Source of the DNA: Gemmatimonadota bacterium
GTDB taxonomy: Bacteria > Gemmatimonadota > Gemmatimonadetes > Longimicrobiales > Gaopeijiaceae
Length of the DNA stretch: 64,000 nucleotides
Reading direction: 5' to 3'
Assembly: GCA_022827345.1 (NCBI GenBank)
Contig: JAJDTB010000068.1
Location: forward strand, 62,001-126,000
In this document: positions 4,799 to 29,007 of the stretch, one piece after another
How positions within the stretch are numbered: the stretch's first letter is position 1
Layout: every line of letters begins with the position of its first letter
The notes under the pieces: generated by a model
Database searches by the model: none
The model's input: the letters and a program-made list of their open reading frames with translations, nothing else
Told to the model about the DNA's origin: nothing
Program-made: the position numbers and the translations under genes

Positions 4799-5060
4799 CG
4801 GGGTTCTCGGTATGGAGGGAACGGAGAGGCGATCCAACCTTAGCCGGGAACGGCTAGGTTGCCTAGTGTACTGTCCCGGAGATTCCTCGGCGATTCGAGC
4901 ACCGATGCACCCGCGCTGGACCGCTACGCTCGCCGAGGTCACCTGCGGCCGGCAAGCGACAATATTATTCGTGTCGGCCATCTGGCCAACTCGGCGTCCG
5001 CCAGCCAGCCAAAGGCCCGGAGGAACCGTCGGAGAGCACCCCAGACAAAGGCTGGGAGCC

Positions 5061-6275
5061 TTGCAGAGCTTTGCAGACAGGAGACTCACATCCGGGCTGG
5101 GCACCCGGTTTGTCGCCTCGGTGATCGCCGGCCCCGGCGCGATTGCCGTGTCATTCGCCCTGTGGTCGTGTGGAGACCCCGGTGAGCGTAACCCCGGCGC
5201 GGGCACGGAGGCCCCCGCGCGCGACTCTCTGTCGGCTGATCCGATATGGGCGGTCGGCAGCGCAGATGGCCCGGAGGCAGAGGTCTTCTCGCGAATCTCG
5301 GGCGCGCGACGGCTGCGCGACGGCAGTGTAGTCGCAGGCGTCGAAGGGTTCCACGAAATCAGGAAGTTCGGGCCGGACGGGGCGCATCTCTGGTCCGTCG
5401 GTCGCCGGGGCGCGGGCCCAGGCGAGTTCGCGCGGCTGCAGCTTCTGCAGGGCTGCTCGGAAGACAAGGTTGTCGCCTATGACCGCAGCAATTTCAGAGT
5501 CACGGAGTTCGGCCAGGACGGCGAGCGGTTGACGGTGTGGCAATTGCCTTCGGCAGCAACCGTACCGTACGAGGTGACCTGTGCTCCGGATGGCAGGATC
5601 ATCTACTTCGCGGCGGGTCAATTCCCGTCGGAGACCGGGATCTTCCGATGGCACGTGCCGATCTCATGGATTTCTCCCGGAATGCAGGGCGCCCGCCTGA
5701 TCCGGGACGACGTGCCGGGGCCGGAGCGCGTTCTCGATGACGACGGCTACTGGGATCGCCCGTGGTCCCGGAGACTGGTCCTTGGAGGAACCGATCGCGG
5801 CGTATGGATCGGAACAAGCGACGACCATATGCTGGAGCTGGTCGGGTGGGACGGGACGGTGCTGGATACGCTCGCGTGGTCGGGGAGAGACCGTACGGTC
5901 ACCCAGGCGGACATCGACCAGTTGCAGGACGAGTTTACGGCAGGGGATGACGAGGAGGAGAGGGCCCGGTTTCTCAGGGAGAGCTGGCCCGGCTACGAGA
6001 GAGTGCTGCCCTCCACGGTACCGGCGTATTCACACCTGCTGGTCCTGGCTGACGGCACGCTGTGGGTCGGGCAGTGGGACGGCATCATGTGGTTTCCACG
6101 GCTGCCGGGGCACCCCGGAAAACGCTGGGACGTCTTCGATGCTTCGGGAAAGCGGATCCGCCAGGTGACGATTCCGAGTCACATGCGTCTGCTCGATGCC
6201 GGAGCTGACTGGGTGCTTGTGGTGGTCCGGGACAGCCTGGGAGTCGAGGCGCTTGCGGTTTACGAAGTGTCGTAG
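5061..6275 (+). CDS. 6-bladed beta-propeller lipoprotein
   Basis: About 404 residues if translation starts at the TTG at 5061; the frame is open upstream, so the start is uncertain. This start gives a basic n-region, a hydrophobic segment and a lipobox-like cysteine (SFALWSCGDPG). The body has propeller-type repeats: EIRKFGPDGAHLWSVG, then a GRRGAGPGEF loop, then VTEFGQDGERL and YWDRPWSRRLVLGG. The G-x-G-P-G-E-F loop recurs in the lipoprotein at 35389-36648, so the two are paralogues. It is probably an outer-membrane-anchored or periplasmic protein of unknown ligand. It is divergent from the BNR-repeat gene. Confidence 0.7.
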   Translation: MQSFADRRLTSGLGTRFVASVIAGPGAIAVSFALWSCGDPGERNPGAGTEAPARDSLSADPIWAVGSADGPEAEVFSRISGARRLRDGSVVAGVEGFHEIRKFGPDGAHLWSVGRRGAGPGEFARLQLLQGCSEDKVVAYDRSNFRVTEFGQDGERLTVWQLPSAATVPYEVTCAPDGRIIYFAAGQFPSETGIFRWHVPISWISPGMQGARLIRDDVPGPERVLDDDGYWDRPWSRRLVLGGTDRGVWIGTSDDHMLELVGWDGTVLDTLAWSGRDRTVTQADIDQLQDEFTAGDDEEERARFLRESWPGYERVLPSTVPAYSHLLVLADGTLWVGQWDGIMWFPRLPGHPGKRWDVFDASGKRIRQVTIPSHMRLLDAGADWVLVVVRDSLGVEALAVYEVS

Positions 6276-6464
6276 GGATCGGCGATACGGCCCGACCGAC
6301 ATTCGTGACGTCCGAGTGGGCCTGCATCGTCACGCCGGCGCCGGACCCGGGCCCACTGAGCGTCGGGGACGTTGCCTGGCCGACCCCGCCGCCACAGTTT
6401 CGCTCTGAGGCGCGATTGAAGCCGGCCCGGCCGGCCTCTGAAGACCACGCATGGAGGAACCAGC

Positions 6465-8543
6465 ATGACCAGGAACGCAAAGCTCACCGGACTCCTCATG
6501 CTTGCCGGTGGTCTCGTCGGCGCGAGTTACGCCGCCGCTCCCCTGTCGGCCCAGACCGCCGGCGACCCGATCGTCCGGCTGTGGGCCTACCCCGACGCAC
6601 TCGAGATGCGCGTCGGGGACGAGGTGCGGGTGACGATCGCGGCGTACACGCGCTCGGGGGCACGGGTGGAGAACCCGGTGGTGCGGCTGGTGGGGCCGCG
6701 GGCTGCGATGAGGGTGCGGCAGGGGGTGGTCACCGCGCTGGCGGCGGGGGACTACGAGCTGATCGCGACGCTGGTGCGGGAGGGTGGGGATCCCGCAGGC
6801 GAGCCTGTGACCATGAGGGTGCCGGTCAGCATCGGCTGGCCAGCCGTCGACAGGGTGGTCGTCTCTCCCACCACCGACCATCGGTTGCTCGTGGGGACCA
6901 CCTTGCGGATGCGCGCGCGCGCCGAGCACGCCGACGGTTCCGCCCGGAGCGAACCCGAGGTGACGTGGCGCAGCGGCGCACCCGACATCGCGGCCGTTGA
7001 CCGCTTCGGGCGCGTGACGGCCGTGGCCCCCGGTACGGCTGCCATCACCGCGACGGTCGACGGCGTGGACGGAACGCTCACCGTGCGGGCCGATCCATTC
7101 ACGGGCGAGACGATCGCGATCACCGGCGGTGGGACGCGGGCGCGCACTGGCGACGTCATCGACTTCAGCGCGGAGGTGCGCGGCGCCGGCGGCGACCTTC
7201 TGGGCGGCGTTCCCGTCGAGTGGTCCCACATCTGGGAGGAGCCCGAGGGAGTCATCGCGCCACCCGCTCCGGCCCAGATGTCCGGCGGCCGTTTCGTCGC
7301 GGATGTCCCCGGCGTCTACACCGTGATCGCCGACGCGGGGCCGCTTTCCGCGCGCACCTCGTTCCGGGTCGTCGCCCGCGATGTCGTCCAGAAGCTCGAG
7401 ATCCAGGGGCAGGGGAGGGAGCAGCGGGTTCGCACCACCGATTTCTGGGTCTTCGAGGGGCGCGACGGGCGGGACTACGCGCTCACCGGGGCCAAGCGGT
7501 CCGACGGATACGGATTCGTGTGGGATGTGACCGAGCCGGGGAACATCTTCAAGACCGACTCGATCCAGGTGGATGCGCGGTCGATCAACGACATGAAGGT
7601 GTCGCCCGATGCGCGCTACGCCACCATGACCCGCGAGGGGGCGTCGAACCGGCGCAACGGGGTGGTGATCCTCGACCTCACCGACCCCGCGCATCCCGTG
7701 ATCGCCTCCGAGGTGACGGACCACGGGCTGACGGGCGGGGTGCACAACGCCTTTCCCACGCCCGAGTACGTCTACGCGCTGGCGGGCGGCGACAAGTACG
7801 TGATCCTGGACATCAGCGACCTGTACAACCCGCGCCTGGTCGGCGAATACAACCACCCCGACAGCCGTCTGCACGACGTGTGGGTGCTCGACGGGCTCGC
7901 CTACTCGGCCGAGTGGGAGAACGGGCTGGTGGTCGTGGACGTGGGCGACGGGAGGTGGGGCGGCTCGCCCGAAAACCCGGTTCTGGTGAGCAGCTACCCG
8001 ATCCCGGGGGGTGCGACGCACGCGGTCTTCCCGTACATCTCGCAGTCGACGGGGAAGCACTACGTCTTCCTGGGCGACGAGATCATGAGCCGGCGGGGGC
8101 TGGCGTGGGAGGGTCCCGGGCAGGGGCGCGGGTCGTACCAGCTGCCGTACGATCCCGAGACCGGGATGAACGGGATTCCGCTCGCGACGCGGGGCTACAT
8201 CCAGATCGTGGATTTCTCCGACCCCGAGTCGCCGCGGATGGTGGCGCGCTACGAGGTCCCCGAGTACGGCACCCACAACATCTGGGTCGAGGACGACATC
8301 CTGTATCAGGCCTACTACGAGGGCGGCGTGCGCATGGTGGATGTGTCGGGCGAACTGATGGGCAACCTGTACACGCAGGGACGCGAGATCGCCGTCTTCA
8401 AGGCCTACGACCCGATTGGTTATGTTCCCAATTCGCCGATGGCCTGGAGCGCGATGCCCTTCAAGGGCCGCGTCTTCTTCTCGGACACGAATTCGGGGCT
8501 GTGGTCGGCGAGGCTGGTGCCCAGGAGCAGGCCGGTCAGCTGA
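6465..8543 (+). CDS. Secreted protein with bacterial Ig-like domain and LVIVD-type propeller repeats
   Basis: 692 residues with a signal peptide ending near APLSAQ. Residues about 130-225 form a BIG2-like Ig domain (TWRSGAPDIAAVDRFGRVTA, then GTAAITATV). The second half carries LVIVD-like repeats, seen as VVILDLTDPAHPVIASEV, YVILDISDLYNPRLVGEY, IQIVDFSDPESPRMVARY and GGVRMVDVSGE, which form a propeller. A strong Shine-Dalgarno (GGAGGAA) precedes the ATG by 6 nt. The role is likely extracellular or periplasmic binding; no enzyme motif is seen. The gene lies between a propeller lipoprotein gene and a small membrane-protein gene on the same strand. Confidence 0.8.
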   Translation: MTRNAKLTGLLMLAGGLVGASYAAAPLSAQTAGDPIVRLWAYPDALEMRVGDEVRVTIAAYTRSGARVENPVVRLVGPRAAMRVRQGVVTALAAGDYELIATLVREGGDPAGEPVTMRVPVSIGWPAVDRVVVSPTTDHRLLVGTTLRMRARAEHADGSARSEPEVTWRSGAPDIAAVDRFGRVTAVAPGTAAITATVDGVDGTLTVRADPFTGETIAITGGGTRARTGDVIDFSAEVRGAGGDLLGGVPVEWSHIWEEPEGVIAPPAPAQMSGGRFVADVPGVYTVIADAGPLSARTSFRVVARDVVQKLEIQGQGREQRVRTTDFWVFEGRDGRDYALTGAKRSDGYGFVWDVTEPGNIFKTDSIQVDARSINDMKVSPDARYATMTREGASNRRNGVVILDLTDPAHPVIASEVTDHGLTGGVHNAFPTPEYVYALAGGDKYVILDISDLYNPRLVGEYNHPDSRLHDVWVLDGLAYSAEWENGLVVVDVGDGRWGGSPENPVLVSSYPIPGGATHAVFPYISQSTGKHYVFLGDEIMSRRGLAWEGPGQGRGSYQLPYDPETGMNGIPLATRGYIQIVDFSDPESPRMVARYEVPEYGTHNIWVEDDILYQAYYEGGVRMVDVSGELMGNLYTQGREIAVFKAYDPIGYVPNSPMAWSAMPFKGRVFFSDTNSGLWSARLVPRSRPVS

Positions 8544-16954: not shown

Positions 16955-17863
16955 CTACCCACCCCGACCTCCCTGAACGCGACCCGAACGTCGGAGAGAT
17001 GGTGCGCGTCCGCACCTGATCGAGGCCGCCAACCGCGAGGCCGAGGCGGGCCTCCGGCGGGACGCCACCGCCGAAGAGATCTGGCGAAATGAGCTTCGCC
17101 TGCTGGACCGGATGCAGAACATTGCCGACGAAGCCCGTACCCGACCGGATGCCAAGACGCACAGGCTCATCGATTGGATCCGGGACAACATGTGCCCGGA
17201 CCTTCCGACATTTGGCTTACCCGTCGTCGGCGAGACCCCACGTGGAACGACCACCGCGTGTTGATCGCGCGCGCCACGTTCTACCGTCGCCGGGGACCTA
17301 GCTGCTAAGCTAGTCGGATAGCCGTTCGCGTAGACGAGGTGGTAGCGAATCTCCAGGAGGTCGACCTGCTCTCCTGTGAGCGTGCTTAGGGCAGCGAGCC
17401 AGTCGTCGCGCGGAACCTGGAAGCGGATATCCTCGACTTGGGCGGCGGTTGTCGCTCCGCCCATCTCGATGCGAGGCCACAGCCGCATCGTCAGGGCGAG
17501 GGCACCGCCGGCCCGGCGCTCTTCAAGCCGTTCCAGCCGGAACCCGCCCAGATCGAGAGCGACGGAGGTGTCCTGCGTGTCCACGTAATCGAAGGAGCGG
17601 AGCGGGCGTCTCGGACCTTCGCGCGCGAGCGTGCCGACGAGAAGGTCATCCGCCCCGAGTCGCAGTTCGCCGCGGAAGTCGACCACCCGATACTCCTCGT
17701 GGGCACGTCCGTGTTGCGAAATGACGCGGTGCCCGAGGGTCCACGAGAGCCCGAAGCGGATTCTCGGGCTCAGCGCGGGCACGGGCGCGACGTTGGTCAC
17801 CGCCACTCGGCCCACCTGGGAAGTCCCTATTGTGACGCGTCCTGCACCGTATCCGGCAGCCAT
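16955..17863 (-). CDS. Third gene of the subtilase operon, probably truncated at its 3' end
   Basis: Translation starts at an ATG at 17863 with a strong AGGAGGAG Shine-Dalgarno, 19 nt after the subtilase stop, so it is the third gene of that operon. The frame is open for 302 codons. Only the first ~190 residues look like protein: beta-rich (VGRVAVTNVAPVPALSPRIR, YRVVDFRGELRLGADDLLVG, FDYVDTQDTSVALDLGGF), then a helical segment FQVPRDDWLAALSTLTGEQV and LLEIRYHLVYANG. Beyond ~17310 it runs antisense to a helicase remnant and loses protein character. I infer a rearrangement that replaced its C-terminus. I do not recognise the family; a role with the subtilase and AAA ATPase is inferred from position only. 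Confidence 0.55.
   Translation of the reverse strand: MAAGYGAGRVTIGTSQVGRVAVTNVAPVPALSPRIRFGLSWTLGHRVISQHGRAHEEYRVVDFRGELRLGADDLLVGTLAREGPRRPLRSFDYVDTQDTSVALDLGGFRLERLEERRAGGALALTMRLWPRIEMGGATTAAQVEDIRFQVPRDDWLAALSTLTGEQVDLLEIRYHLVYANGYPTSLAARSPATVERGARDQHAVVVPRGVSPTTGKPNVGRSGHMLSRIQSMSLCVLASGRVRASSAMFCIRSSRRSSFRQISSAVASRRRPASASRLAASIRCGRAPSLRRSGRVQGGRGG
17013..17270 (+). pseudogene. Remnant of a SNF2-type helicase gene
   Basis: On the plus strand 17013-17264 reads as HLIEAANREAEAGLRRDA, then EEIWRNELRLLDRMQNIADE, ARTRPDAKTHRLIDWIRDNM and CPDLPTFGLPVVGETPRG, followed by a stop. Read one frame over, 17240 onwards gives TWNDHRVLI, the strand that opens the second helicase domain of SNF2-family proteins (typically W-x-D-x-R-V-I-I-F-T-E-Y). 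The match then breaks off. It is therefore a frameshifted internal piece with neither end. SNF2-like helicases occur in defence systems such as DISARM (DrmD); that link is inference from memory of the family, not a search. Confidence 0.5.
17298..17313. repeat. Short perfect inverted repeat at a rearrangement junction
   Basis: CTAGCT-GCTA-AGCTAG is a perfect 6-bp inverted repeat. It lies where the plus-strand helicase remnant ends and the protein-like part of the minus-strand third gene begins. It may mark the join, but a structure this short can occur by chance. Confidence 0.3.
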
Positions 17864-17882
17864 CCGGGCTCCTCCTCTCTCT

Positions 17883-20486
17883 CTAGGCCCGAGCCCGAAC
17901 CGCCAAGGCTTGTCGCACTTCGTTGTAGACGGGAACACCTTCTCCAGCCTCGATGGTAACCACCACACCGTAACGGATCGCGGCGTCGAGCGCCCCGGCA
18001 GGCTCCTTACACGTGATACGCAGCGCCACACGACCGTCCGCGACGAACGGGACGGCCTGCTTGCCGTGGTACCGCTGGTGGAACAACGTTCCCCTCGGGC
18101 TTGAGACGCTACTGGGCTGAAGCTTCTCGCGCGTGGTACCGAACTCGGCATCAAAACCTCCCGCCACTTCAAGCTTCGCCATCCGATAGGCCAGATGCCG
18201 CACGTTGACGGGGGAGAACCAGGCCAGAGTCACCGTGAGTGTTCGGGGCACGTCAACGCGCGAAAGGCTGGGCGGGAGCGGCAGACGACAGACGGCCATC
18301 TGCCCGCTCTCGATCCGCCCGTAGCCGACCATTGTCGCCCTGTGGGCTGTGCAGGTCATCGCCTCCTCGATCCGCGGAAAGCCGTAGCCCAGGATGCGGG
18401 CGACGTTGTCCAGCCGCTCCACATGCGTTCCCCGCCCCTGCGGCCCATAGAGGTTGCCAAGCTTGAAAGCCACCGATTTGTCCCACCGGGCGGCGTGCAC
18501 CAGGAGCGCCCGTACCACGACCCCGCGGTGCTCGGGATCCGCGTCGGCGAGCACGCTTCCGTTCTCCGGAGCCATCAGCGCATCGTAGAGCTGGTGCGCG
18601 GCACGGGTGGTGAGTGCCGCGGCCACGCTGGTGCCGCCGGTGTTCGTCTCCCTGTCCAAACCGCCCGCCGCGTCGGGTGCCGCTGCCCTGATACCGAAGC
18701 GCGAACCGGGATTCCCAGGCTGGAGCTGGAGCTGGCCACCGTGTGGACTGGCCAGGACGTGCTCCCGCCCTCCTGGCATTAGGATGTCGGGCTTGATGGC
18801 CTTGCGGTGCCCCAGTCCCATGGCGGAACTGATGTTCGGCAATGCTCCGTTCACGTACGGTGCCACCAGCGGGCCCGTTCCTATGCCTCCGAGGCCGCCG
18901 CCTGGAGCCTCGTCGTGGCTGGCGCCCACAGTCACCACATTCAAGGCTTCGGACGGCGACAGCAGCGTTCGCTGGGAGCGCTGCTCGCCCAGGCCATCCA
19001 GAACGGCGTCCTCCCGCGCGGATGCTTCGGCATCCTCGAACCCCGTCATGGTATCGAATCCCGGGACCGGCAGGGGTTGGGTGATATTCCCGGCACTCAC
19101 GACGAATAGAATGCCGTACCTGTGGGCGAGGTGGTCGAGCAGACGTGCCCACGGACTGATCCAGCCTGCGTAGGGCCTTCGCGTATCGCCCAGAGAAAGG
19201 TTCACGATGAAGACTTGGGGAGCGGATGGCCGTGTCCCGCCGACCCCCTCCTTCATGCGCACGACCGCCCGGTAGACGGTATCGACCAACAGGCGATCCG
19301 GCCGGAACCGCTCCTCGGAGCCACTATCGGGTGCGTACATGACCGGATGGACGTGGATCAACCGGCTCAGTGGGGTGTCGATCTGATTGCGATCTCCATG
19401 GATGATCAAGGATGCCATCGCGGTGCCGTGGTACCTGGCGAATACAAGGCTCCGTGCGTCAAGACCGTCCGGATCATCGATGGCCACGCGCCCTGCCAAA
19501 AGCCGATGCCTCTGGACTGGCACGCCATCCAGCAATGCGACAATTGGGGGTTCGTCCGGTGTGGGGAGCGGGCCGTCAGGCGCCGCTCCAGTCGATGCGC
19601 GACGGCGCGCCGGTTGGGGGAACCCCAAGGATTGAGGCCTTACGAACATAATGTCGTCGGAGACCACGAGATGGACGGGTTCCCGATCTATCACCCGCAG
19701 CACCTCCTCCCGTGGCAAGCGGACCAGCGCTGCCTCGTAGCCAATGGGTGGGACGGAGGCCTGATGGACGACCGATCCGCCCGCTTGAGCCACTACACCC
19801 GCGAGATTGCGCCTCGCCCGTTCGCGTTGCAGTTCGCTCTCCCGGTACCAAAGCTCGACTTCAAGCGAGACCCTCGATTCGGGATCGGACCCGAGGTCAA
19901 GCAGGAAGTCCTCGCGCGTAGCGTCCGAAATCCTGTCCTCGGGCCCCCAGGGTCGAAGATCATGGAGGCGGTCGAAGAGGTGGTGCCAGGACTTGAATCC
20001 GCGTTCCAACTCCGAGCCCTTCTGATGGCGCTCCCATAGGCTGAGGAGCTGTCCCAGCGCTCGAAGGTCCGGCATGGCTGCGTAGAGCCTTCCCCCCACT
20101 GACTTGCCATCGCGGCGCTGCCCCTCCTTCCCCTTCCGAGTGTCAATCACCCAGAAATCGTCATCGGGTTCGAACTCCGTATTCTGCTCGGCGAGGTATT
20201 CCAATCCCGGCACCTTGCGGCACGCAGCAGCGAAATCGCTGATAGATCCCGCCACCTCGAACACGATGACCCTCTCCGGGGCCAGACTGCCGGGGTCGTC
20301 ACGCAACTCCACCGGATCACGGTGTCCAGCGACGAAAGATGCCAGCCGGTCGAATACGGGCCCCAGCCGCTCAGCTTGGCGTGCACGTGTAGGAAGCGCC
20401 GGGCCCTTTGGTGGCGGAAAGGGGTTGCCGCGCGGAGGACTGGCGATCTCCAGAGCCGGAAGCGGCAGGAGCGGAAAGTCAGGCAT
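17883..20486 (-). CDS. Subtilisin-like serine peptidase (S8), paired with AAA ATPase
   Basis: 867 residues and no signal peptide, so it is probably cytoplasmic. The catalytic triad is complete: Asp320 in VALLDGVPV, His353 in YHGTAMASL and Ser620 in GGTSVAAAL, with the oxyanion Asn in VVSAGN. The N-terminus begins with a proline-rich stretch (PLLPLPALEIASPPRGNPF), followed by ~280 residues before the protease domain. The C-terminal ~200 residues contain a beta-rich region (SRVDVPRTLTVTLAWFSPVN) as in large subtilases. The AAA ATPase gene ends 18 nt upstream and a hypothetical gene follows 19 nt downstream, so the three form one operon. Subtilase/AAA pairs are found in bacterial accessory regions and suggest regulated proteolysis in defence; the substrate is unknown. 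Confidence 0.85.
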   Translation of the reverse strand: MPDFPLLPLPALEIASPPRGNPFPPPKGPALPTRARQAERLGPVFDRLASFVAGHRDPVELRDDPGSLAPERVIVFEVAGSISDFAAACRKVPGLEYLAEQNTEFEPDDDFWVIDTRKGKEGQRRDGKSVGGRLYAAMPDLRALGQLLSLWERHQKGSELERGFKSWHHLFDRLHDLRPWGPEDRISDATREDFLLDLGSDPESRVSLEVELWYRESELQRERARRNLAGVVAQAGGSVVHQASVPPIGYEAALVRLPREEVLRVIDREPVHLVVSDDIMFVRPQSLGFPQPARRRASTGAAPDGPLPTPDEPPIVALLDGVPVQRHRLLAGRVAIDDPDGLDARSLVFARYHGTAMASLIIHGDRNQIDTPLSRLIHVHPVMYAPDSGSEERFRPDRLLVDTVYRAVVRMKEGVGGTRPSAPQVFIVNLSLGDTRRPYAGWISPWARLLDHLAHRYGILFVVSAGNITQPLPVPGFDTMTGFEDAEASAREDAVLDGLGEQRSQRTLLSPSEALNVVTVGASHDEAPGGGLGGIGTGPLVAPYVNGALPNISSAMGLGHRKAIKPDILMPGGREHVLASPHGGQLQLQPGNPGSRFGIRAAAPDAAGGLDRETNTGGTSVAAALTTRAAHQLYDALMAPENGSVLADADPEHRGVVVRALLVHAARWDKSVAFKLGNLYGPQGRGTHVERLDNVARILGYGFPRIEEAMTCTAHRATMVGYGRIESGQMAVCRLPLPPSLSRVDVPRTLTVTLAWFSPVNVRHLAYRMAKLEVAGGFDAEFGTTREKLQPSSVSSPRGTLFHQRYHGKQAVPFVADGRVALRITCKEPAGALDAAIRYGVVVTIEAGEGVPVYNEVRQALAVRARA

Positions 20487-20504
20487 GTTCGTCGAGCCGC
20501 GCCC

Positions 20505-21476
20505 CTATTCGCCCCCCACCCGCCCGCGCTCCTCCCAGAGCTTCAGCGTCGCAGTCACCACTCTCTTCAGCCCGTCGCGACCAAGCCCCAGGGCGAACCG
20601 TCTCCTCACGTCGAGGCAGAACTCCTCGGCCTCGGCATAGCTGACCGGCCCCAGCCGGGACGCCAGTCTGGCCGGGGCATGCCCCAACCCGCCCCCCATG
20701 GAACGACCGAACCTCTCAAGGTACCCGGCGAGATCCTTCTCCGTCGGCGCGTCAAGCGAGAGGCGCAGCTGGAACCGGCGCCAAACCGCGCGATCAAGCA
20801 GCTCTGGGTGGTTGGTGGCGGCCACCGTCACCGTGTAGCTCGGCAGTTCGTCGACCTGCATCAGCAGCGAGGTGACCACGCGCTTGATCTCGCCCGTTTC
20901 GTGATGGTCCCCCCGCTCCTTCGCGACCGCATCGAACTCGTCGAAGAAGAGAACGCTGGGGGTGGTCCGGGCGTAGTCGATCACCCGCTTCAGGCGACTG
21001 GCGGTCTCGCCGAGATAGCTCCCGATCATCGTCTCGTAGCGCACGACGATGAAGGGGACGGAGAGCGCCTCCGCGATGGCTTCCGCCAGCGTCGTCTTTC
21101 CATTCCCCGGAGGTCCGACGAGGAGAACGCGATGCCGGGGCTCCAGCGAATGGGCCCTCAGGACGGACGCCCTCCGCTGCTCCTCGATCAGGTCGCGGCA
21201 GGCCGCCCCGTTCGTGTCCGAAAGGACGAGGTCCTCCAGGCGTCGTCGCGGCACCAGCTCGGTCGCAAATCGGCGCCAGGCGCGGCCACGCCCGATGAAC
21301 CCTGCCCGGGGGCGTCCCTCCCCGTTGGCGACAGCTCGGGTCAGACGGTCCGCAAGGACGTGGTGGTTCTTGGCCCGCTCCTCGGCGATGATCGCCTCGG
21401 TGGTCTTCCGGACCCGTCCCCGGTCGCCCTCGGCACTGGCCTGGACGAGAGAGACCAGCAGATCGGCTCTTGCCAT
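20505..21476 (-). CDS. AAA ATPase (FtsH/CDC48-like) partnered with the subtilase
   Basis: 323 residues from an ATG at 21476, chosen because AGGGG lies eight bases upstream; an in-frame ATG 31 codons earlier is less likely. After an N-terminal helical region (LLVSLVQASAEGDRGRVRKT) comes a classical AAA domain. It has Walker A GPPGNGKTT (Lys127), Walker B VLFFDEFDAV, sensor 1 VAATNHPE and the Arg-finger region DRAVWRRFQL. All ATPase residues are present. Unlike FtsH there is no membrane segment and no zinc protease domain. With the subtilase encoded 18 nt downstream, it could act as the unfolding or regulatory ring of a two-subunit protease; this is inference. Confidence 0.88.
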   Translation of the reverse strand: MARADLLVSLVQASAEGDRGRVRKTTEAIIAEERAKNHHVLADRLTRAVANGEGRPRAGFIGRGRAWRRFATELVPRRRLEDLVLSDTNGAACRDLIEEQRRASVLRAHSLEPRHRVLLVGPPGNGKTTLAEAIAEALSVPFIVVRYETMIGSYLGETASRLKRVIDYARTTPSVLFFDEFDAVAKERGDHHETGEIKRVVTSLLMQVDELPSYTVTVAATNHPELLDRAVWRRFQLRLSLDAPTEKDLAGYLERFGRSMGGGLGHAPARLASRLGPVSYAEAEEFCLDVRRRFALGLGRDGLKRVVTATLKLWEERGRVGGE

Positions 21477-21700: not shown

Positions 21701-24205
21701 TCATGATTTGGCGGCACGAACTGACCCCACCCACCTACTCCGCTCCTGGATCATCTCAACAATGTCCCCGGCTACCCTTTCGAACTCCTCGGGCACCCTT
21801 ACCCGTTGCCCGGCTAGCTTCTGGAGGGCGGCGCGCAACGGCACCAACTCGCGGCAATCCTCCGCGCTCCGCGCCAGCGCGCCCGCGAAGACCTCCGGCG
21901 TCGCCCCGGCGGCCATCAGATCGATGGTGTCCCACACGACCTTGCCGACCATCTCACGGTCGGCGACATCAAGGTCATCGCACATCGTCCGGAACAGCTC
22001 GGCCGCGGCAGACTCCTTGCCCTCTAGTACGAGCCCATGTATCCGGCACCCCATGGCGCGCCATCGAACAGGGATGCCCCGTCGTCCTGCCATACCTCCG
22101 AAGTTGCGTACGAGATCATCACACGTTTCGAGTGCTTCTCGCCCGCGTCCCATCCGGTTCAGACTCATGCCCTTCAGTTCGAGGGCCATAGCCACCTCTC
22201 GCTGAAGATCCGGCTGGTCGCTTGTCCGGTAACGACGAACGACTTCGTCGCAGGCCGCGACGGCAGCCTCGTTGTCCCCCATCTTCATCCTCGCGCCCGC
22301 CTTTTTCGTCAGCGCGGTAGCGACCTGAACCTGTATGTCCGGCTCGCCGTCCCCGTCGAAACGCTCAATGACGTCATCCCAGACCCCGATCGCCGAGTGC
22401 ATCGCTTTGGATGATTCGGGTCCCGCCAGGGTGGAGCCCTTGTTTCGCAACGCCATCGCAACGCACAATCGGACTTGGGGCTGGGGGCTGCCGCCGAAGC
22501 GCCGTGCGACCTCGTCATAGCACGCGATCGCCGCGTCCGGTTCGCCAAGGTGGCCGTGCAGGAATCCCCGGTTCAGGAGTGCGGTAGCCACGCATTCCTG
22601 GATGCTTGGCGATGCTGACGGTCCGAAACGCGTCGCCACCTTGTTGAAGGCGGTCACCGCAGCCTTGTGTTTGCCAGCGCCCTGCATTGCCACAGCCTTG
22701 TTGAAGTATGCCTTGGCGACGGCAACCTCCACCTCGTGGATCGAAGTGGACTCGAAACGTCCGATCAGTTCGTCGTTGTACTCGATGGAGCGCTCGGCCT
22801 CCCTTGATTTACCAAGCTTTGCCCCGATATCGAGAAGTTCGCCCGCCACCGCAACCTGGCGGTCCGAGTCACAAAGGCCCCTATGGTGCTTGACAAGTGC
22901 CCTGTAGGTCGCTGCCGCGTCACCCGCTGGGATGGCGCCGATGTCCGAGTCAAAACCTTCCTGGGCGCGACGGAACGCTTGTTGGTATCCCTTGTCGGCC
23001 AGCAGCGAGCCGAGAATCTCCGTCGTCTCGTCCGGGCCGTAGAACGCCACCATGAACCGAATCAGCCCGCGCACGATGGCCGCTTCGTCCCTCCAGCGCC
23101 TCAGCTTGTAGTACATGCAGTGGAGCGGCTCCGCGACGGAGTACAGCCGGCGCCCTCCTTCCTCGGCGACCTTGACCGCGCCGCGACCCCCCAAGCGCCC
23201 CAGTAAGGCGGAAGTCTTTCGCACCCCCATCCGCGCCCGGTTCGCCACATCGCGAGTGCTCGATGGCCACCAGAGATCCGCCAGGGCCACGTAGACCCGT
23301 CGTTCCGTCCCGGGCAGGGAGTTCAGATTGCCGCGAAAGTACTCGCTGTGGTCGTCGACGAGGCCCACCAGTTCCTCCAACAGCTGCGGAACGGTACGAT
23401 GGCGAGCGAACTCGGCGACGATCACCAGGAGGCGCGGGCTTCCGCCGGTAAGGATCTCCAGCGGCCGCATCCCCCAAGTGCCGCGCTGTTCACCGGTAAT
23501 GCCCTGCCACAAGCGCTGGCACTCGGCAGTGTTCAGAGCATCCAGCTGTAGGATGCGGAAGAGCTCGAAGAACGCCGCCCGCGCGTCGTCCAAAGCCTCG
23601 AAGCGGCTTGTAGCAGTCCCCAGGAGCATGATTTCGGGATCCGACTGTAGCGACTCGCGAAGTTGCCATCCGAACTCATTGTCCACCTCCTCGCACAGGT
23701 CCTGGAGGTTCTCCACCATTAGGACCAGCCGTCTACCCAGCCTGTCGGCGGCGTCCAGAAGAGCGGCCTTGGCGCGACCGGCGATATCGTCGCCCCGCGA
23801 CTTCCCGGCCAGAGTAGCGTGCGTCGCCTCGATCTCGCGTGAGATGCCGGGGTGTTGCTCGCCGCACTCATTCGCCAGATACACCAAGGCCTCCAGCCAG
23901 AAGTCTCCGATGTCGAAGACCTCCAGGCTCTCCTCCATAAAGCGAACCGGCAGCAGGGCACTGCGGAGTTCCGGGACGGTGCGCAGTTCCGCGGCGATGC
24001 GCGCCAACAGCATGGTCTTCCCCCGCCCCCGCGGGCCCACGACGAGCGTGTGCTGGCAGGATGGGGCACCGATGTTCTCGCGGAGTATCTCCAGGACGGT
24101 CTCCAGCTCCCGCGTCCGAACCACGAACTGGTCGATGACCTCCTGGTCCGGCTGGAAGACACCCGGGTTGAACTTCCGGATGATGCGCTCCGGCGGCGTG
24201 CTCAT
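21701..24205 (-). CDS. AAA/STAND-like ATPase with winged-helix and C-terminal TPR-like repeats
   Basis: 834 residues. Residues 20-260 are an AAA_16/Orc-type NTPase with Walker A VVGPRGRGKTM (Lys63) and Walker B RRLVLMVENLQDL. Residues ~300-360 look like a winged helix (TRDVANRARMGVRKTSALLG, then RGAVKVAEEGGRRLYSV). From ~470 to 760 there are repeated helical hairpins ending in motifs such as AFNKVATRFGPS, CYDEVARRFGGS, VWDDVIERFDGD and ACDEVVRRYRTS. These are TPR-like units spaced about 45-50 residues apart, alternating with -ATALLNRGF or -AMALRNKGS type helices. This sensor-type architecture (NTPase, WH, repeat) resembles STAND immune proteins. Its ATG overlaps the stop of the upstream ATPase gene by 4 nt (ATGA), so the two are made together. 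Confidence 0.8.
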   Translation of the reverse strand: MSTPPERIIRKFNPGVFQPDQEVIDQFVVRTRELETVLEILRENIGAPSCQHTLVVGPRGRGKTMLLARIAAELRTVPELRSALLPVRFMEESLEVFDIGDFWLEALVYLANECGEQHPGISREIEATHATLAGKSRGDDIAGRAKAALLDAADRLGRRLVLMVENLQDLCEEVDNEFGWQLRESLQSDPEIMLLGTATSRFEALDDARAAFFELFRILQLDALNTAECQRLWQGITGEQRGTWGMRPLEILTGGSPRLLVIVAEFARHRTVPQLLEELVGLVDDHSEYFRGNLNSLPGTERRVYVALADLWWPSSTRDVANRARMGVRKTSALLGRLGGRGAVKVAEEGGRRLYSVAEPLHCMYYKLRRWRDEAAIVRGLIRFMVAFYGPDETTEILGSLLADKGYQQAFRRAQEGFDSDIGAIPAGDAAATYRALVKHHRGLCDSDRQVAVAGELLDIGAKLGKSREAERSIEYNDELIGRFESTSIHEVEVAVAKAYFNKAVAMQGAGKHKAAVTAFNKVATRFGPSASPSIQECVATALLNRGFLHGHLGEPDAAIACYDEVARRFGGSPQPQVRLCVAMALRNKGSTLAGPESSKAMHSAIGVWDDVIERFDGDGEPDIQVQVATALTKKAGARMKMGDNEAAVAACDEVVRRYRTSDQPDLQREVAMALELKGMSLNRMGRGREALETCDDLVRNFGGMAGRRGIPVRWRAMGCRIHGLVLEGKESAAAELFRTMCDDLDVADREMVGKVVWDTIDLMAAGATPEVFAGALARSAEDCRELVPLRAALQKLAGQRVRVPEEFERVAGDIVEMIQERSRWVGSVRAAKS

Positions 24206-25458
24206 GAAGCGTCATTCTCCCTGAAGCCGATGGTGCGATCCTCCAACAAGGGCCTGTAGTGGTGCCGGAAACGGGCCTTCCACCAGTCCCGCAGCAGATT
24301 CATCCTGAATCGGTGGCCGTCTGAATGGGGTTCGATATACTCGTCATGGACGAGGACGGCGAGCGTGTCGGTGACCAGTCGCGGGGCGTCGTCCACGAGG
24401 CTGGAGTACCTCTTCTCAAGCTGACGGCGGGCTCCGGCCGTGAAGGCGCCCTGAATGGCCGCTTCGGCCAGGATTTCCATGGCGATTCCGTAGCGGTGCG
24501 CGTCACCCAGCCCGTCCCGGAGCCGCGCCTCGTAGTGCGCGAGGTCGTTCTGCCCCGATGGTCCGAGAAGTCCGGTACGGTATACTTCCGCGACGTCCTC
24601 CAGAGCGATCCGGGCTCGGTCGTGCATCCGGACGTAATCCCTCAGACGGGCAAAGAACGACTGCACGTACTGCGGAACGCCCGTGCCGAGGTGCTCGTAG
24701 ACGGCTTGCGCCACCCCATCGTCAGCGGACAGGCCGTAGTTCTTCATGAGCGCCTCGAAGCACCGGGCCGATACATCAAGGCTCCAAGGACCCAGCCGGA
24801 TTGGATCCAGGTAGTTGACCCGATCGGAGATGCCCAGCCGCTCGACCAGCGGGGCGAGCCCGATACTGCCAGACACGATCAGGGTCGGGAGACGGTCATC
24901 ACCCGTCTGGAAGACGGCACGCAACCAGCTCAGGAACTCGTCCACGCGCCGAGCACCGTCTTCCTGATCGAGTAGTCTCACAAGGAATATCGGCAACTCG
25001 TCGATGACGATGAGCACCGGTTGGTCGTGCCCGGCACAGTGCGTGATCAGGTCTTCCCCGTGACGGCGCCAGTTCCCGGAATCCAGGCCGGCCCGGAAGC
25101 GGACGGCAAACTGATGGGCGCTGACCTTGTCGACCTTCCCAGCCAGCGATCGTAATCGGCGGCCCATCCCCCTCATGAGGCGCGAAGTGATTGGGGTAAC
25201 CGGATGGCAGGCTTTCGCCAGACTCGTGATGACGTCCTCTTCGGATCGATCCGCTTCCACATCGGCGAAGAGAAATACCCAGCCCTCCTGTTTCAGCCGA
25301 CGCCCCAGCTCGCGTAGAATGCTGGTCTTCCCCATGCGGCGCTGGCCGGTCATGACCAGGTGGTTTCCATCACGGACGCGGGATTCGAGGACCCTCAGTT
25401 CTCCTTCCCGGTCGAAGAAGTCGTCGCCGACCACCCAGTGGCCGGTGGATGATTTCAT
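24202..25458 (-). CDS. AAA/archaeal-ATPase-like NTPase, coupled with the TPR ATPase
   Basis: 418 residues from the ATG at 25458, which has an excellent Shine-Dalgarno (AAGGGAGG, 6 nt spacing). An open frame continues upstream but lacks protein character. The NTPase domain shows DDFFDREGELRVLESRV, Walker A TGQRRMGKTS (Lys44) and Walker B PVLIVIDELPIFL, then the sensor-like LIVSGSIGLAPLVERLG. The rest is helical with a C-terminal wHTH-like part (LEKRYSSLVDDAPRLVTDTL, then VHDEYIEPHSDGHRFRM). It belongs to the class of ATPases that pair with a second NTPase. The stop overlaps the next start (ATGA). It is divergently transcribed from the NDT/TIR-like gene, with a 22-bp inverted repeat between. 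Confidence 0.82.
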   Translation of the reverse strand: MKSSTGHWVVGDDFFDREGELRVLESRVRDGNHLVMTGQRRMGKTSILRELGRRLKQEGWVFLFADVEADRSEEDVITSLAKACHPVTPITSRLMRGMGRRLRSLAGKVDKVSAHQFAVRFRAGLDSGNWRRHGEDLITHCAGHDQPVLIVIDELPIFLVRLLDQEDGARRVDEFLSWLRAVFQTGDDRLPTLIVSGSIGLAPLVERLGISDRVNYLDPIRLGPWSLDVSARCFEALMKNYGLSADDGVAQAVYEHLGTGVPQYVQSFFARLRDYVRMHDRARIALEDVAEVYRTGLLGPSGQNDLAHYEARLRDGLGDAHRYGIAMEILAEAAIQGAFTAGARRQLEKRYSSLVDDAPRLVTDTLAVLVHDEYIEPHSDGHRFRMNLLRDWWKARFRHHYRPLLEDRTIGFRENDAS

Positions 25459-25566
25459 GGCCCGCCTCCCTTCCGTGTGCGTTCGAGCGAATGTCCGTTG
25501 AGCGAGCAGCCGATGCCCTGCGCCAGCCCTTCGGATGCCCAAAACGCTAACCGTCAACACGTTTGT

Positions 25567-25588
25567 TGTCAACGGGGTTGTTGACAAG
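25567..25588. promoter_or_regulatory. Inverted-repeat operator between divergent ATPase and NDT/TIR-like genes
   Basis: TTGTCAAC and GTTGACAA form a perfect 8-bp inverted repeat around GGGGTT. A third related half-site (GTCAACA) lies at 25554-25560. On the minus strand TTGACA followed 17 nt later by TAGCGT could be a promoter that overlaps the repeat. The block sits 109 nt upstream of the ATPase start and 65 nt upstream of the oppositely oriented gene. It could therefore control both. Confidence 0.6.
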
Positions 25589-25652
25589 TGAAGCGATGAC
25601 GTAGGGGCAGTGGCGAGAACGCACGCAGGGGCTGGACCGCCGTCGCGTCCCG

Positions 25653-26165
25653 GTGCGATTATTCCCCGCAACCGCGACCTCCCGTAATAACCCCGTCCCC
25701 GCACATGCCCGGTTCAGTCACGACACCGCTAGGTCCGGTGAGCCGAAGGGGTGGGGAGCCTTCGTCGCCATGTGGTTCGACCCCAGAATGGACAATGCCT
25801 ACAGAAACGGTATCGAACCGGGTGTTCGGGACGCAGGCTTCGTACCGATCCGCATTGACGAGAAGAAGGATGCGATCCGCATTGACGATGACATCATTAC
25901 CGCGATCAAGGAGTCCCGTTTCGTCGTGGCGGACATGACCCACGGTAGTGATGGCGTGCGCGGCAGCGTGTATTTCGAGGCCGGTTTCGCTCGCGGCCGC
26001 GGTTTGGAGGTGATCTACTGCTGCCGGAGGGACTGCATCGGCGGGCTGCCGTTCGATACTCGCCAATACCATCACATCGCTTGGGACACGCCCCAGGAAC
26101 TGCGCAAGGAGTTGGCCGAGAGGATACGCGCACGAATTGGCCTTCCGGCTGCCGGTGTTACGTAG
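25653..26165 (+). CDS. Nucleoside 2-deoxyribosyltransferase/TIR-like protein, candidate effector
   Basis: 170 residues if the GTG at 25653 is used; no clear Shine-Dalgarno is seen, so the start is uncertain. The first strand of the fold (GAFVAMWFDPRMDNAY) shows that the start must lie before 25740. Later motifs are ITAIKESRFVVADMTHG and GSVYFEAGFARGRGLEVIYC. The D-(M/L)-T followed by Y-x-E-x-G-F-A is the signature of the nucleoside deoxyribosyltransferase-like and TIR-like N-glycosidase group, with Glu109 as the likely catalytic residue. Stand-alone versions in defence islands often degrade NAD or nucleotides. It faces the coupled ATPase genes across a shared 194-nt promoter region, which suggests a sensor/effector arrangement. 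Confidence 0.65.
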   Translation: MRLFPATATSRNNPVPAHARFSHDTARSGEPKGWGAFVAMWFDPRMDNAYRNGIEPGVRDAGFVPIRIDEKKDAIRIDDDIITAIKESRFVVADMTHGSDGVRGSVYFEAGFARGRGLEVIYCCRRDCIGGLPFDTRQYHHIAWDTPQELRKELAERIRARIGLPAAGVT

Positions 26166-26802: not shown

Positions 26803-29007
26803 TTATCCCCCCGGCGCCATCAACCCGTGTGCCTTGGGCAGAAAGTCCGACATCATTCTGGCGAAGTGCCGGTAGTAGTCATCCCACGCAATTCCTTCGA
26901 AGTCGCGGGGATTGGCCTCGATGTTGCCCTGCAGCCGACGGGCACACAGCGCCTCGGCCACCACTTCCGCCAGCAGCACCCGAAAGTGCAACTCGTCCTG
27001 CCCCGGATACTGCTCGGACTTCGGCCCCAGGTACCGCTTGAGCGACGGATGACGGGCCCCGATCTCCAGCACGTTCTTGTTCCAGCGGTAGCGCAGCGCG
27101 CCGTGGTCGACGTCCTCGAGCTTGATGACGATTCCCGTACCGGCAGCCGAGGCCGGGCGAAGTTCCGTCTCGGCTTCGTGCTCCCCGAGGCGGGCGACTA
27201 CCCTGGTCGGCGAGGCGTCGTCGTCGAGCACCGCGACCCTCAGCTTGCACACAGCGATTCCGAGCGTGGCGCTCAGAACCAGCCTCCTCGCTCCCGACAC
27301 CCGGAAATCGTCCGAAGACAACTCCAGATCGAACTCCCGGCCGGCCGAGCGGGCAAGCGGTACCGGAGCCAGCAGCCTGATCGTCCGCCGCGACCCGCCG
27401 CGGATGCGGTAGCTCTTGCGTTCGAACTGGAGTCCGGTCACATGCGAATACCGTTCGGCCTCCGAGGCGAGCACCGCGATGGTCGACTCCGCCTTGATCG
27501 GGCCAACGCGCGCCTCCAGACCGGTTGCAGGGGTCGGTGTTAGCGCCTTGACCGACCATGTCGCCCGCAGTACACCCTCCTGCGCTTCTACCGGTTCCAA
27601 GGGCACTTCAGTCGCGTCCGCCCGGATCTCGTCCGTCAAACACTCCACCTCGACCGGCTCACCTTCGCCGATTTCCGGAAACGCCGCGGACCGTACCGTG
27701 AGCCAGCACTTGAAGGAGTGACCCTTCAGGGCCTGCGCGTACTGCGGGCTCAGCGAATAGCCCCGAATCTGGAACTGGCTACCCTTTTCTCGCCCCTTGG
27801 GATCCCGCGACGTGTCCTCGTCCGAAAAGTCCTCCATGAACCGGTTGGCGGCTTTCTCGAGCGCGTCCAGACGCTTCCGGGTCTTCTGGCTCTCCACGGT
27901 GCGTGCACGCTCTCGCTGCTCACGGGACCGCTCCTCCTCGACCAGCGGCCGGAGAAGCGCGAGCGCCCTCCCGTAGAGCGCCGCAACGAACGGATGGTCC
28001 GGAACCAGGCCCGACTTGCGTGACGGGTCCAGAATGGGAACCGGATTCTCGGGTGGATGCGGTGTGCCATGGGCCTGCCGGTCGTCGTACTCGTTCCAGA
28101 GGTCGTCGATCGCCTCGCAGGTGAGTCGGCCGTGGAACCACTGCGCGTGCGAATCCCACTCCAGACTCCGCTCGAAAAGCGTGGCCTCGTGAATCGCGTG
28201 CCGCGACTTGACCAGGATGCCCCCCAGCCGGAATCGGGGCCCGGCCGACGTGGTATGGAACTTCTTGCGGGCCCGATGGATCACCAGCTTGGCTGACGCG
28301 CCGGAGTAGCCGGGCACCGTAAACCGCGTCGAGACACGTCTCTTCCCGGCGGGCCTGTGAAGGCCGACCTCCCGGTCCCTCTCGTTCCTCAATCCACGTA
28401 CCACAATCGTGGTCTTCTTCTGCCACACGATGTCCCGCAGCCGAACCAGCCTGGCGACGTTGGGCACCAGCGTATCGATCTTCGGGATCCGGTGGCTCGG
28501 TTCGATTTCGATGGTGACTACCGTCCCCGTTCCCTCTCGGATACCCACCCGCTTGCGGGCATCCCGCGTGACCTCGTGCGGGTCGTCGGCCTCGTACTCC
28601 AGATTCGGGAAGATGCGGCAGGTGTGCAGCAGCCCGTCTCCGGGTATCGATTCGAATGTGACCTTGCCTAGAGCCGCGATGTCCTTCGCCCCTCGCGAGT
28701 TGGTCCCACGGACCGCCTTCCCCTTCTCCATTCCGCTGACCCGTCCACCGATGCGTCCGAGCTTGCGGTTCATCTGGTCGGTGGTCATTCCGTCGGCGAA
28801 GTCGCGCACCCGCAGAATCGACGGCTTGCCCTGGCCTCGCCGTCCCAATTCGACCTCCACCCGACCCCCGGTGCCCAGAATCTGATACCGGTCGTCGGCG
28901 TTGGTGACGAGTTCCACGATGGCGTCGTACACGTCCCGGATTGCCAGCCTGGCGTCCTGGACGACTCGTCTGGACGCAACTTCCAGAGGTCTTCGTTTTA
29001 CGGCCAT
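26803..29007 (-). CDS. GHKL (Hsp90/MORC-like) ATPase, candidate defence protein
   Basis: 734 residues. The N-terminal ATPase fold has the N box IVELVTNADDRYQ (Glu32, Asn36), the G1 box RDFADGMT (Asp69-Gly73) and the G2 box RGTNSRGAKDIAALG (residues 100-114). This resembles MORC and Hsp90-type ATPases, not sensor kinases. A basic transducer-like segment follows (TIVVRGLRNERDREVG), then a helical region around 350-400 (REQRERARTVESQKTRKRL) and a long beta-rich C-terminus. The final ~100 residues form a distinct helical domain (EDVDHGALRYRWNKNVLEIG, then LLAEVVAEALCARRL). The absence of a partner gene on the same strand suggests a single-gene system. Stand-alone GHKL ATPases of this type are frequent in defence islands; the function is not known. 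Confidence 0.75.
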   Translation of the reverse strand: MAVKRRPLEVASRRVVQDARLAIRDVYDAIVELVTNADDRYQILGTGGRVEVELGRRGQGKPSILRVRDFADGMTTDQMNRKLGRIGGRVSGMEKGKAVRGTNSRGAKDIAALGKVTFESIPGDGLLHTCRIFPNLEYEADDPHEVTRDARKRVGIREGTGTVVTIEIEPSHRIPKIDTLVPNVARLVRLRDIVWQKKTTIVVRGLRNERDREVGLHRPAGKRRVSTRFTVPGYSGASAKLVIHRARKKFHTTSAGPRFRLGGILVKSRHAIHEATLFERSLEWDSHAQWFHGRLTCEAIDDLWNEYDDRQAHGTPHPPENPVPILDPSRKSGLVPDHPFVAALYGRALALLRPLVEEERSREQRERARTVESQKTRKRLDALEKAANRFMEDFSDEDTSRDPKGREKGSQFQIRGYSLSPQYAQALKGHSFKCWLTVRSAAFPEIGEGEPVEVECLTDEIRADATEVPLEPVEAQEGVLRATWSVKALTPTPATGLEARVGPIKAESTIAVLASEAERYSHVTGLQFERKSYRIRGGSRRTIRLLAPVPLARSAGREFDLELSSDDFRVSGARRLVLSATLGIAVCKLRVAVLDDDASPTRVVARLGEHEAETELRPASAAGTGIVIKLEDVDHGALRYRWNKNVLEIGARHPSLKRYLGPKSEQYPGQDELHFRVLLAEVVAEALCARRLQGNIEANPRDFEGIAWDDYYRHFARMMSDFLPKAHGLMAPGG

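Follow-up and report, generated by a model that had tools for sequence, protein, structure and literature searches.

A divergent IetAS-type AAA ATPase and subtilase gene pair in a Gemmatimonadota bacterium, and its truncated neighbor from a family with a HEPN-fold domain

The genes described here lie within a stretch of 64,000 nucleotides of DNA from a Gemmatimonadota bacterium (the window), in which three ORFs follow one another on the minus strand. The first ORF (20505-21476, 323 aa) codes for an IetA-type ATPase that comprises a classic AAA module. We take the ATG at 21476 to be its correct start, because relatives share the sequence MARxDLL starting at that residue. After a spacer of 18 nt (20487-20504), the second ORF (17883-20486, 867 aa) codes for an IetS-type subtilase of peptidase family S8. 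Its stop codon is followed by 19 nt (17864-17882) that contain the consensus Shine-Dalgarno sequence AGGAGGA about 7 nt before the ATG of the third ORF (16955-17863). Both gap lengths and the strong ribosome site had been reported in a preliminary description of the locus, and all three are confirmed by the sequence.

The ATPase and subtilase correspond to the PADLOC models of IetA (PDLC04232, E = 3.2e-140, residues 1-318 of 323) and IetS (PDLC04233, E = 9.9e-278, residues 1-866). The ietA gene lies directly upstream of ietS on the same strand, and the catalytic triad and the Walker motifs are intact. NCBIfam provides equivalog models (IteA and IteS) that were built on the reference IetAS subtype, and the window pair scores 207.7 and 52.6 bits with these models, below their respective cut-offs of 510 and 900 bits. 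Since the PADLOC matches span essentially full-length proteins and the NCBIfam scores are under the cut-offs, we assign the pair, by sequence, to the IetAS anti-phage system, as a divergent subtype that is outside the NCBI reference and already covered by PADLOC. This system was reportedly first described by Gao et al. in 2020. Because the equivalog cut-offs are missed, ascribing IetAS function to the window pair is a transfer across a large distance. IetAS consists of an S8 peptidase and an ATPase, and has been associated with phage resistance by an unknown mechanism (PMC11878078, PMC9958689). The preliminary description had suggested a role in defense from the location of the genes in an island, in keeping with the filing of the pair as anti-phage in PADLOC and in these published reports. 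The novelty that it implied for an AAA-subtilase pair is removed, because IetAS is already catalogued; novelty is accordingly low, and what may be useful is a structural hypothesis for the IetAS mechanism.

A search for IetS-like genes covered genomes of the phylum, contigs classified as viral, and plasmids, and gave 72 distinct IetS ORFs. Outside the window, genes were called with a simple codon model that had been trained on the window sequence. Of the 72 ORFs, 66 are preceded by an ietA gene on the same strand at a distance of at most 160 nt. This count is biased, because part of the set was fetched via IetA; loci fetched via IetS present the same picture. In every one of the 66 adjacent pairs, the two genes overlap or are separated by no more than 22 nt. 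Among the six exceptions, the IetS gene is at a contig end in L093, split in L037 and partial in L119. The other three are L041, a divergent case with no recognized IetA, and L156 and L164, in which IetS is convergent to IetA rather than located 3' of it. In L037 (positions 4971-7569, genome G032), the distribution of IetS over two ORFs may indicate a pseudogene or result from an assembly error.

Distances between IetA proteins are strongly correlated with those between the corresponding IetS proteins (r = 0.945, compared with a maximum of 0.17 in 1000 permutations), which shows inheritance as a unit, not contact. The closest relatives, in genome G097, are 89% (IetA) and 81% (IetS) identical to the window's proteins, and the pair is conserved far outside such close relatives. 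The three genes had been proposed to form one machine. For two of them this proposal is supported by gene order, by the short gaps in 66/66 pairs and by the correlation of about 0.95; it is not supported for the third gene, which is discussed below. The distribution of IetS is patchy: within the phylum, 18 of 395 genomes have any match, and many copies reside on plasmids and on IMG/VR contigs classed as viral. Since a collection of phage records contained no IetS match, these IMG/VR contigs may be islands, plasmids or prophages.

The AAA domain of IetA is recognized by Pfam (PF00004, E = 1.8e-30), and the protein has a Walker A motif (GPPGNGKT, 121-128), a Walker B motif (FFDEFD, with D179 and E180), sensor-1 N222, R233/R234 and an aromatic residue in pore loop 1 (Y154 in the window copy). 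K127, D179, E180, N222, R233 and R234 are invariant in 66/66 pairs, and the position of Y154 is occupied by Tyr or Phe in 61 of the 66. A Pfam search revealed no peptidase domain, such as M41, on the protein. Both the motif check and Pfam agree with the earlier statement that the protein has all ATPase motifs and no protease domain. The label "FtsH-like" is not supported: IetA reaches 79.8 of the 600 bits required by the FtsH equivalog model, and its scores with models of Cdc48 and PAN are slightly higher. A C-terminal HbYX docking motif is found in none of 62 IetA proteins.

In the subtilase, no signal peptide is evident. The triad residues D320, H353 and S620, which had been correctly described as intact, and the oxyanion residue N467 are invariant in 29 relatives that are 18-52% identical, as well as in 66/66 full-length IetS sequences. 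If only one of the two activities mattered, losses of the other would be expected, and the 66 pairs retain the two active sites. A search by sequence did not find a solved IetS structure. An AlphaFold2 model built from 29 aligned sequences (pLDDT 86.8, pTM 0.91) has two successive beta-alpha-beta-beta-alpha-beta units (residues 74-179 and 206-284), a low-confidence, disordered linker at about 285-311, a subtilisin domain (312-711) and a C-terminal beta domain that extends to about residue 845. Among known structures, the model is matched by SubHal (Z 26.1), KP-43 (Z 25.6), subtilisins (Z 23-24) and ProN-Tk-SP, and its C-terminal beta domain resembles that of SubHal and KP-43. The alignment with ProN-Tk-SP, which we take to be the structure of a subtilase with its propeptide kept, begins at residue 181. 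In both N-terminal units the order of elements is that of I9 propeptides. From this order and the range of the structural alignment, we infer that the predicted units are propeptide-like, a reading that is structural only because Pfam Inhibitor_I9 has no match in any of the 29 IetS sequences. IetS proteins additionally share a short hydrophobic motif near the N terminus, which is PLLxL in the window's subtype and takes other hydrophobic forms elsewhere, and is a candidate docking peptide.

The hypothesis that we favor, to which we assign about an even chance, is that this divergent IetAS subtype includes a latent protease that is unlocked or fed by a ring of IetA, and that the third gene is separate and not a component. 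IetS would be a cytoplasmic subtilase whose own propeptide-like domains at the N terminus keep it latent, and IetA an ATP-driven AAA ring whose aromatic pore loops grip polypeptide. Upon infection, IetA might either pull an inhibitory segment off IetS or deliver a substrate to it, and the resulting proteolysis of phage or host proteins could then stop the infection. In this scheme, we infer ring formation, latency, direct contact, the trigger and the target.

The main rival to a latent protease is pure threading, in which IetA acts as an unfoldase and threads substrates into an assembly of IetS, in the style of FtsH, Clp or the PAN-proteasome and without a zymogen step. The widespread pore-loop aromatic, the invariance of all ATPase motifs and the nature of IetA as a classic AAA module closest to Cdc48, PAN and FtsH models would all be expected of such an arrangement. 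However, the single-chain IetS model exhibits neither a closed chamber nor a ring-forming domain, IetA lacks an HbYX tail, and the long N-terminal region of IetS is better explained by self-inhibition. We therefore regard pure threading as a possible but rather unlikely explanation.

A second alternative makes the third gene a component specific to this subtype of IetAS, either as an accessory or as a second effector, as the 19-nt spacing and strong ribosome site might suggest. Yet only codons 1 to about 187 of this ORF look like a real gene (17303-17863): residues 1-187 are 66-70% identical to close full-length relatives, over that part only, and the coding score from codon statistics is positive to codon 180 and negative thereafter. 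This 5' part encodes a beta-rich domain. The 3' continuation (16955-17302) is apparently noncoding in this strand and has no convincing similarity to the C-terminal domain of the relatives. Its last 115 or so codons are antisense to a fragment of the DISARM gene drmD: on the plus strand, positions 17016-17240 share 85-87% identity with long ORFs of sister genomes and match DrmD. This fragment of an SNF2-type helicase (17016-17268) has a broken frame near 17240. It marks the recombination scar at which the third gene is truncated, and the 3' continuation takes the place of the HEPN-fold domain of the family.

The third gene belongs to an unannotated family of proteins of about 291 aa, with a beta domain and a HEPN-fold domain, and is truncated at its 3' end. 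Pfam, PADLOC and NCBIfam yielded no match above threshold for this family. In a full-length relative (L076), the C-terminal domain has a HEPN fold, with matches to 2hsb (Z 13.1, rmsd 2.6, 113 residues) and to 1wol (Z 12.8). K251-x7-H259 is invariant in the family, and the canonical HEPN motif R-x4-6-H is absent. No fold is assigned to the beta domain because confidence in its model is low (pLDDT of roughly 26-47 for blocks of 10 residues within 1-180). The sequence matches of the family in the PDB were weak, were to capsid proteins and were taken as chance.

Members of the family occur in 16 of 394 genomes, mostly away from IetAS, and most adjoin other genes, some of them of restriction or toxin type. 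Their co-occurrence with IetAS in the sampled genomes exceeds chance (Fisher p = 0.004), which is in favor of a three-gene system, but clustering in defense islands would give such co-occurrence anyway. Family members in G299 and G091 adjoin IetAS-like genes, tail to tail at about 110 nt and head to head at about 117 nt, respectively, but adjacency to IetS, within about 120 nt, is limited to 3 of the 72 loci, in three different orientations. In G197, a full-length family member shares a contig with a decayed IetAS-like remnant, whose AAA and subtilase C-terminal parts lie nearby at L063:4600-5900. The family is missing from G097, which holds the closest IetAS relative, has no match on plasmids and has no relative in the viral contigs. 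The slot 3' of IetS is elsewhere filled by unrelated genes or by none. A role as conserved IetAS partner was consequently rejected, as was the earlier idea that the third gene is a machine part, given its truncation, its absence from G097, its replacement elsewhere and its rare adjacency. The 5' part is a downstream neighbor of ietS that is probably cotranscribed and not a conserved part of IetAS, and we judge a three-gene system to be improbable.

The slot after IetS holds three unrelated gene families, in rhizobia (L027:7449-7988 and L028:7446-7955), in sphingomonads (L026:7428-8024 and L033:7439-8032) and in two IMG/VR contigs (L095 and L096). The rhizobial gene carries an RNKVH motif reminiscent of HEPN; profile comparison detected no homology between the Rhizobium gene and the third family. 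Within the window, the regions 21701-25704 (minus strand) and 25653-26165 (plus strand) hold two further ATPase genes, one with TPR repeats, that overlap start to stop, and an adjoining small TIR/deoxyribosyltransferase-like gene; these are probably further content of the island. The same island encodes a 734-aa protein (26803-29007, minus strand) for which Pfam, PADLOC and NCBIfam gave no convincing match.

That the pair is instead a housekeeping protease for quality control or regulation is highly improbable: a classic AAA protein with a protease could serve protein turnover, and the defense role of this subtype is predicted, but the patchy distribution, the many copies on plasmids and viral-classed contigs, the adjoining drmD scar and the PADLOC identity all argue otherwise.

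A more specific version of the latent-protease hypothesis is that IetS is an intracellular subtilase whose unlocking depends on ATP, with a Cdc48-like ring stripping its tandem propeptide-like domains on infection, and that HEPN-bearing neighbors contribute RNA cleavage as a further arm in some islands. This version is speculative, and we doubt that it holds in full. We know of no description of ATP-driven propeptide removal as a switch for a serine protease in bacterial immunity.

IetAS is repeatedly listed in defense surveys while its mechanism is unknown, and the retained active sites, the near-universal pore-loop aromatic and the confident domain layout of IetS define specific mutants with which to study that mechanism. 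The notion of a three-gene operon is corrected here as well, and attention is drawn to an unannotated HEPN-fold family in defense islands of Gemmatimonadota. That family resembles known HEPN proteins (DUF4145-like, and the ApeA-type beta plus HEPN layout) in having a HEPN fold after a beta-rich N-terminal domain and in having restriction genes among some of its neighbors, and differs in its K251...H259 in place of R-x4-6-H and in the loss of the HEPN domain from the window copy. Like known IetAS systems, the window pair has an AAA ATPase directly before an S8 peptidase, in the same order and with all active-site residues, whereas its scores are far under the NCBI equivalog cut-offs and its anti-phage activity is predicted from sequence. 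Compared with FtsH, the PAN-proteasome and Clp, IetAS uses a separate S8 subtilase rather than an M41, threonine or Clp-type protease, and neither a membrane anchor nor an HbYX docking motif was seen. With these systems it shares an AAA module with an aromatic pore loop 1, an adjoining protease and, possibly, ATP-gated proteolysis.
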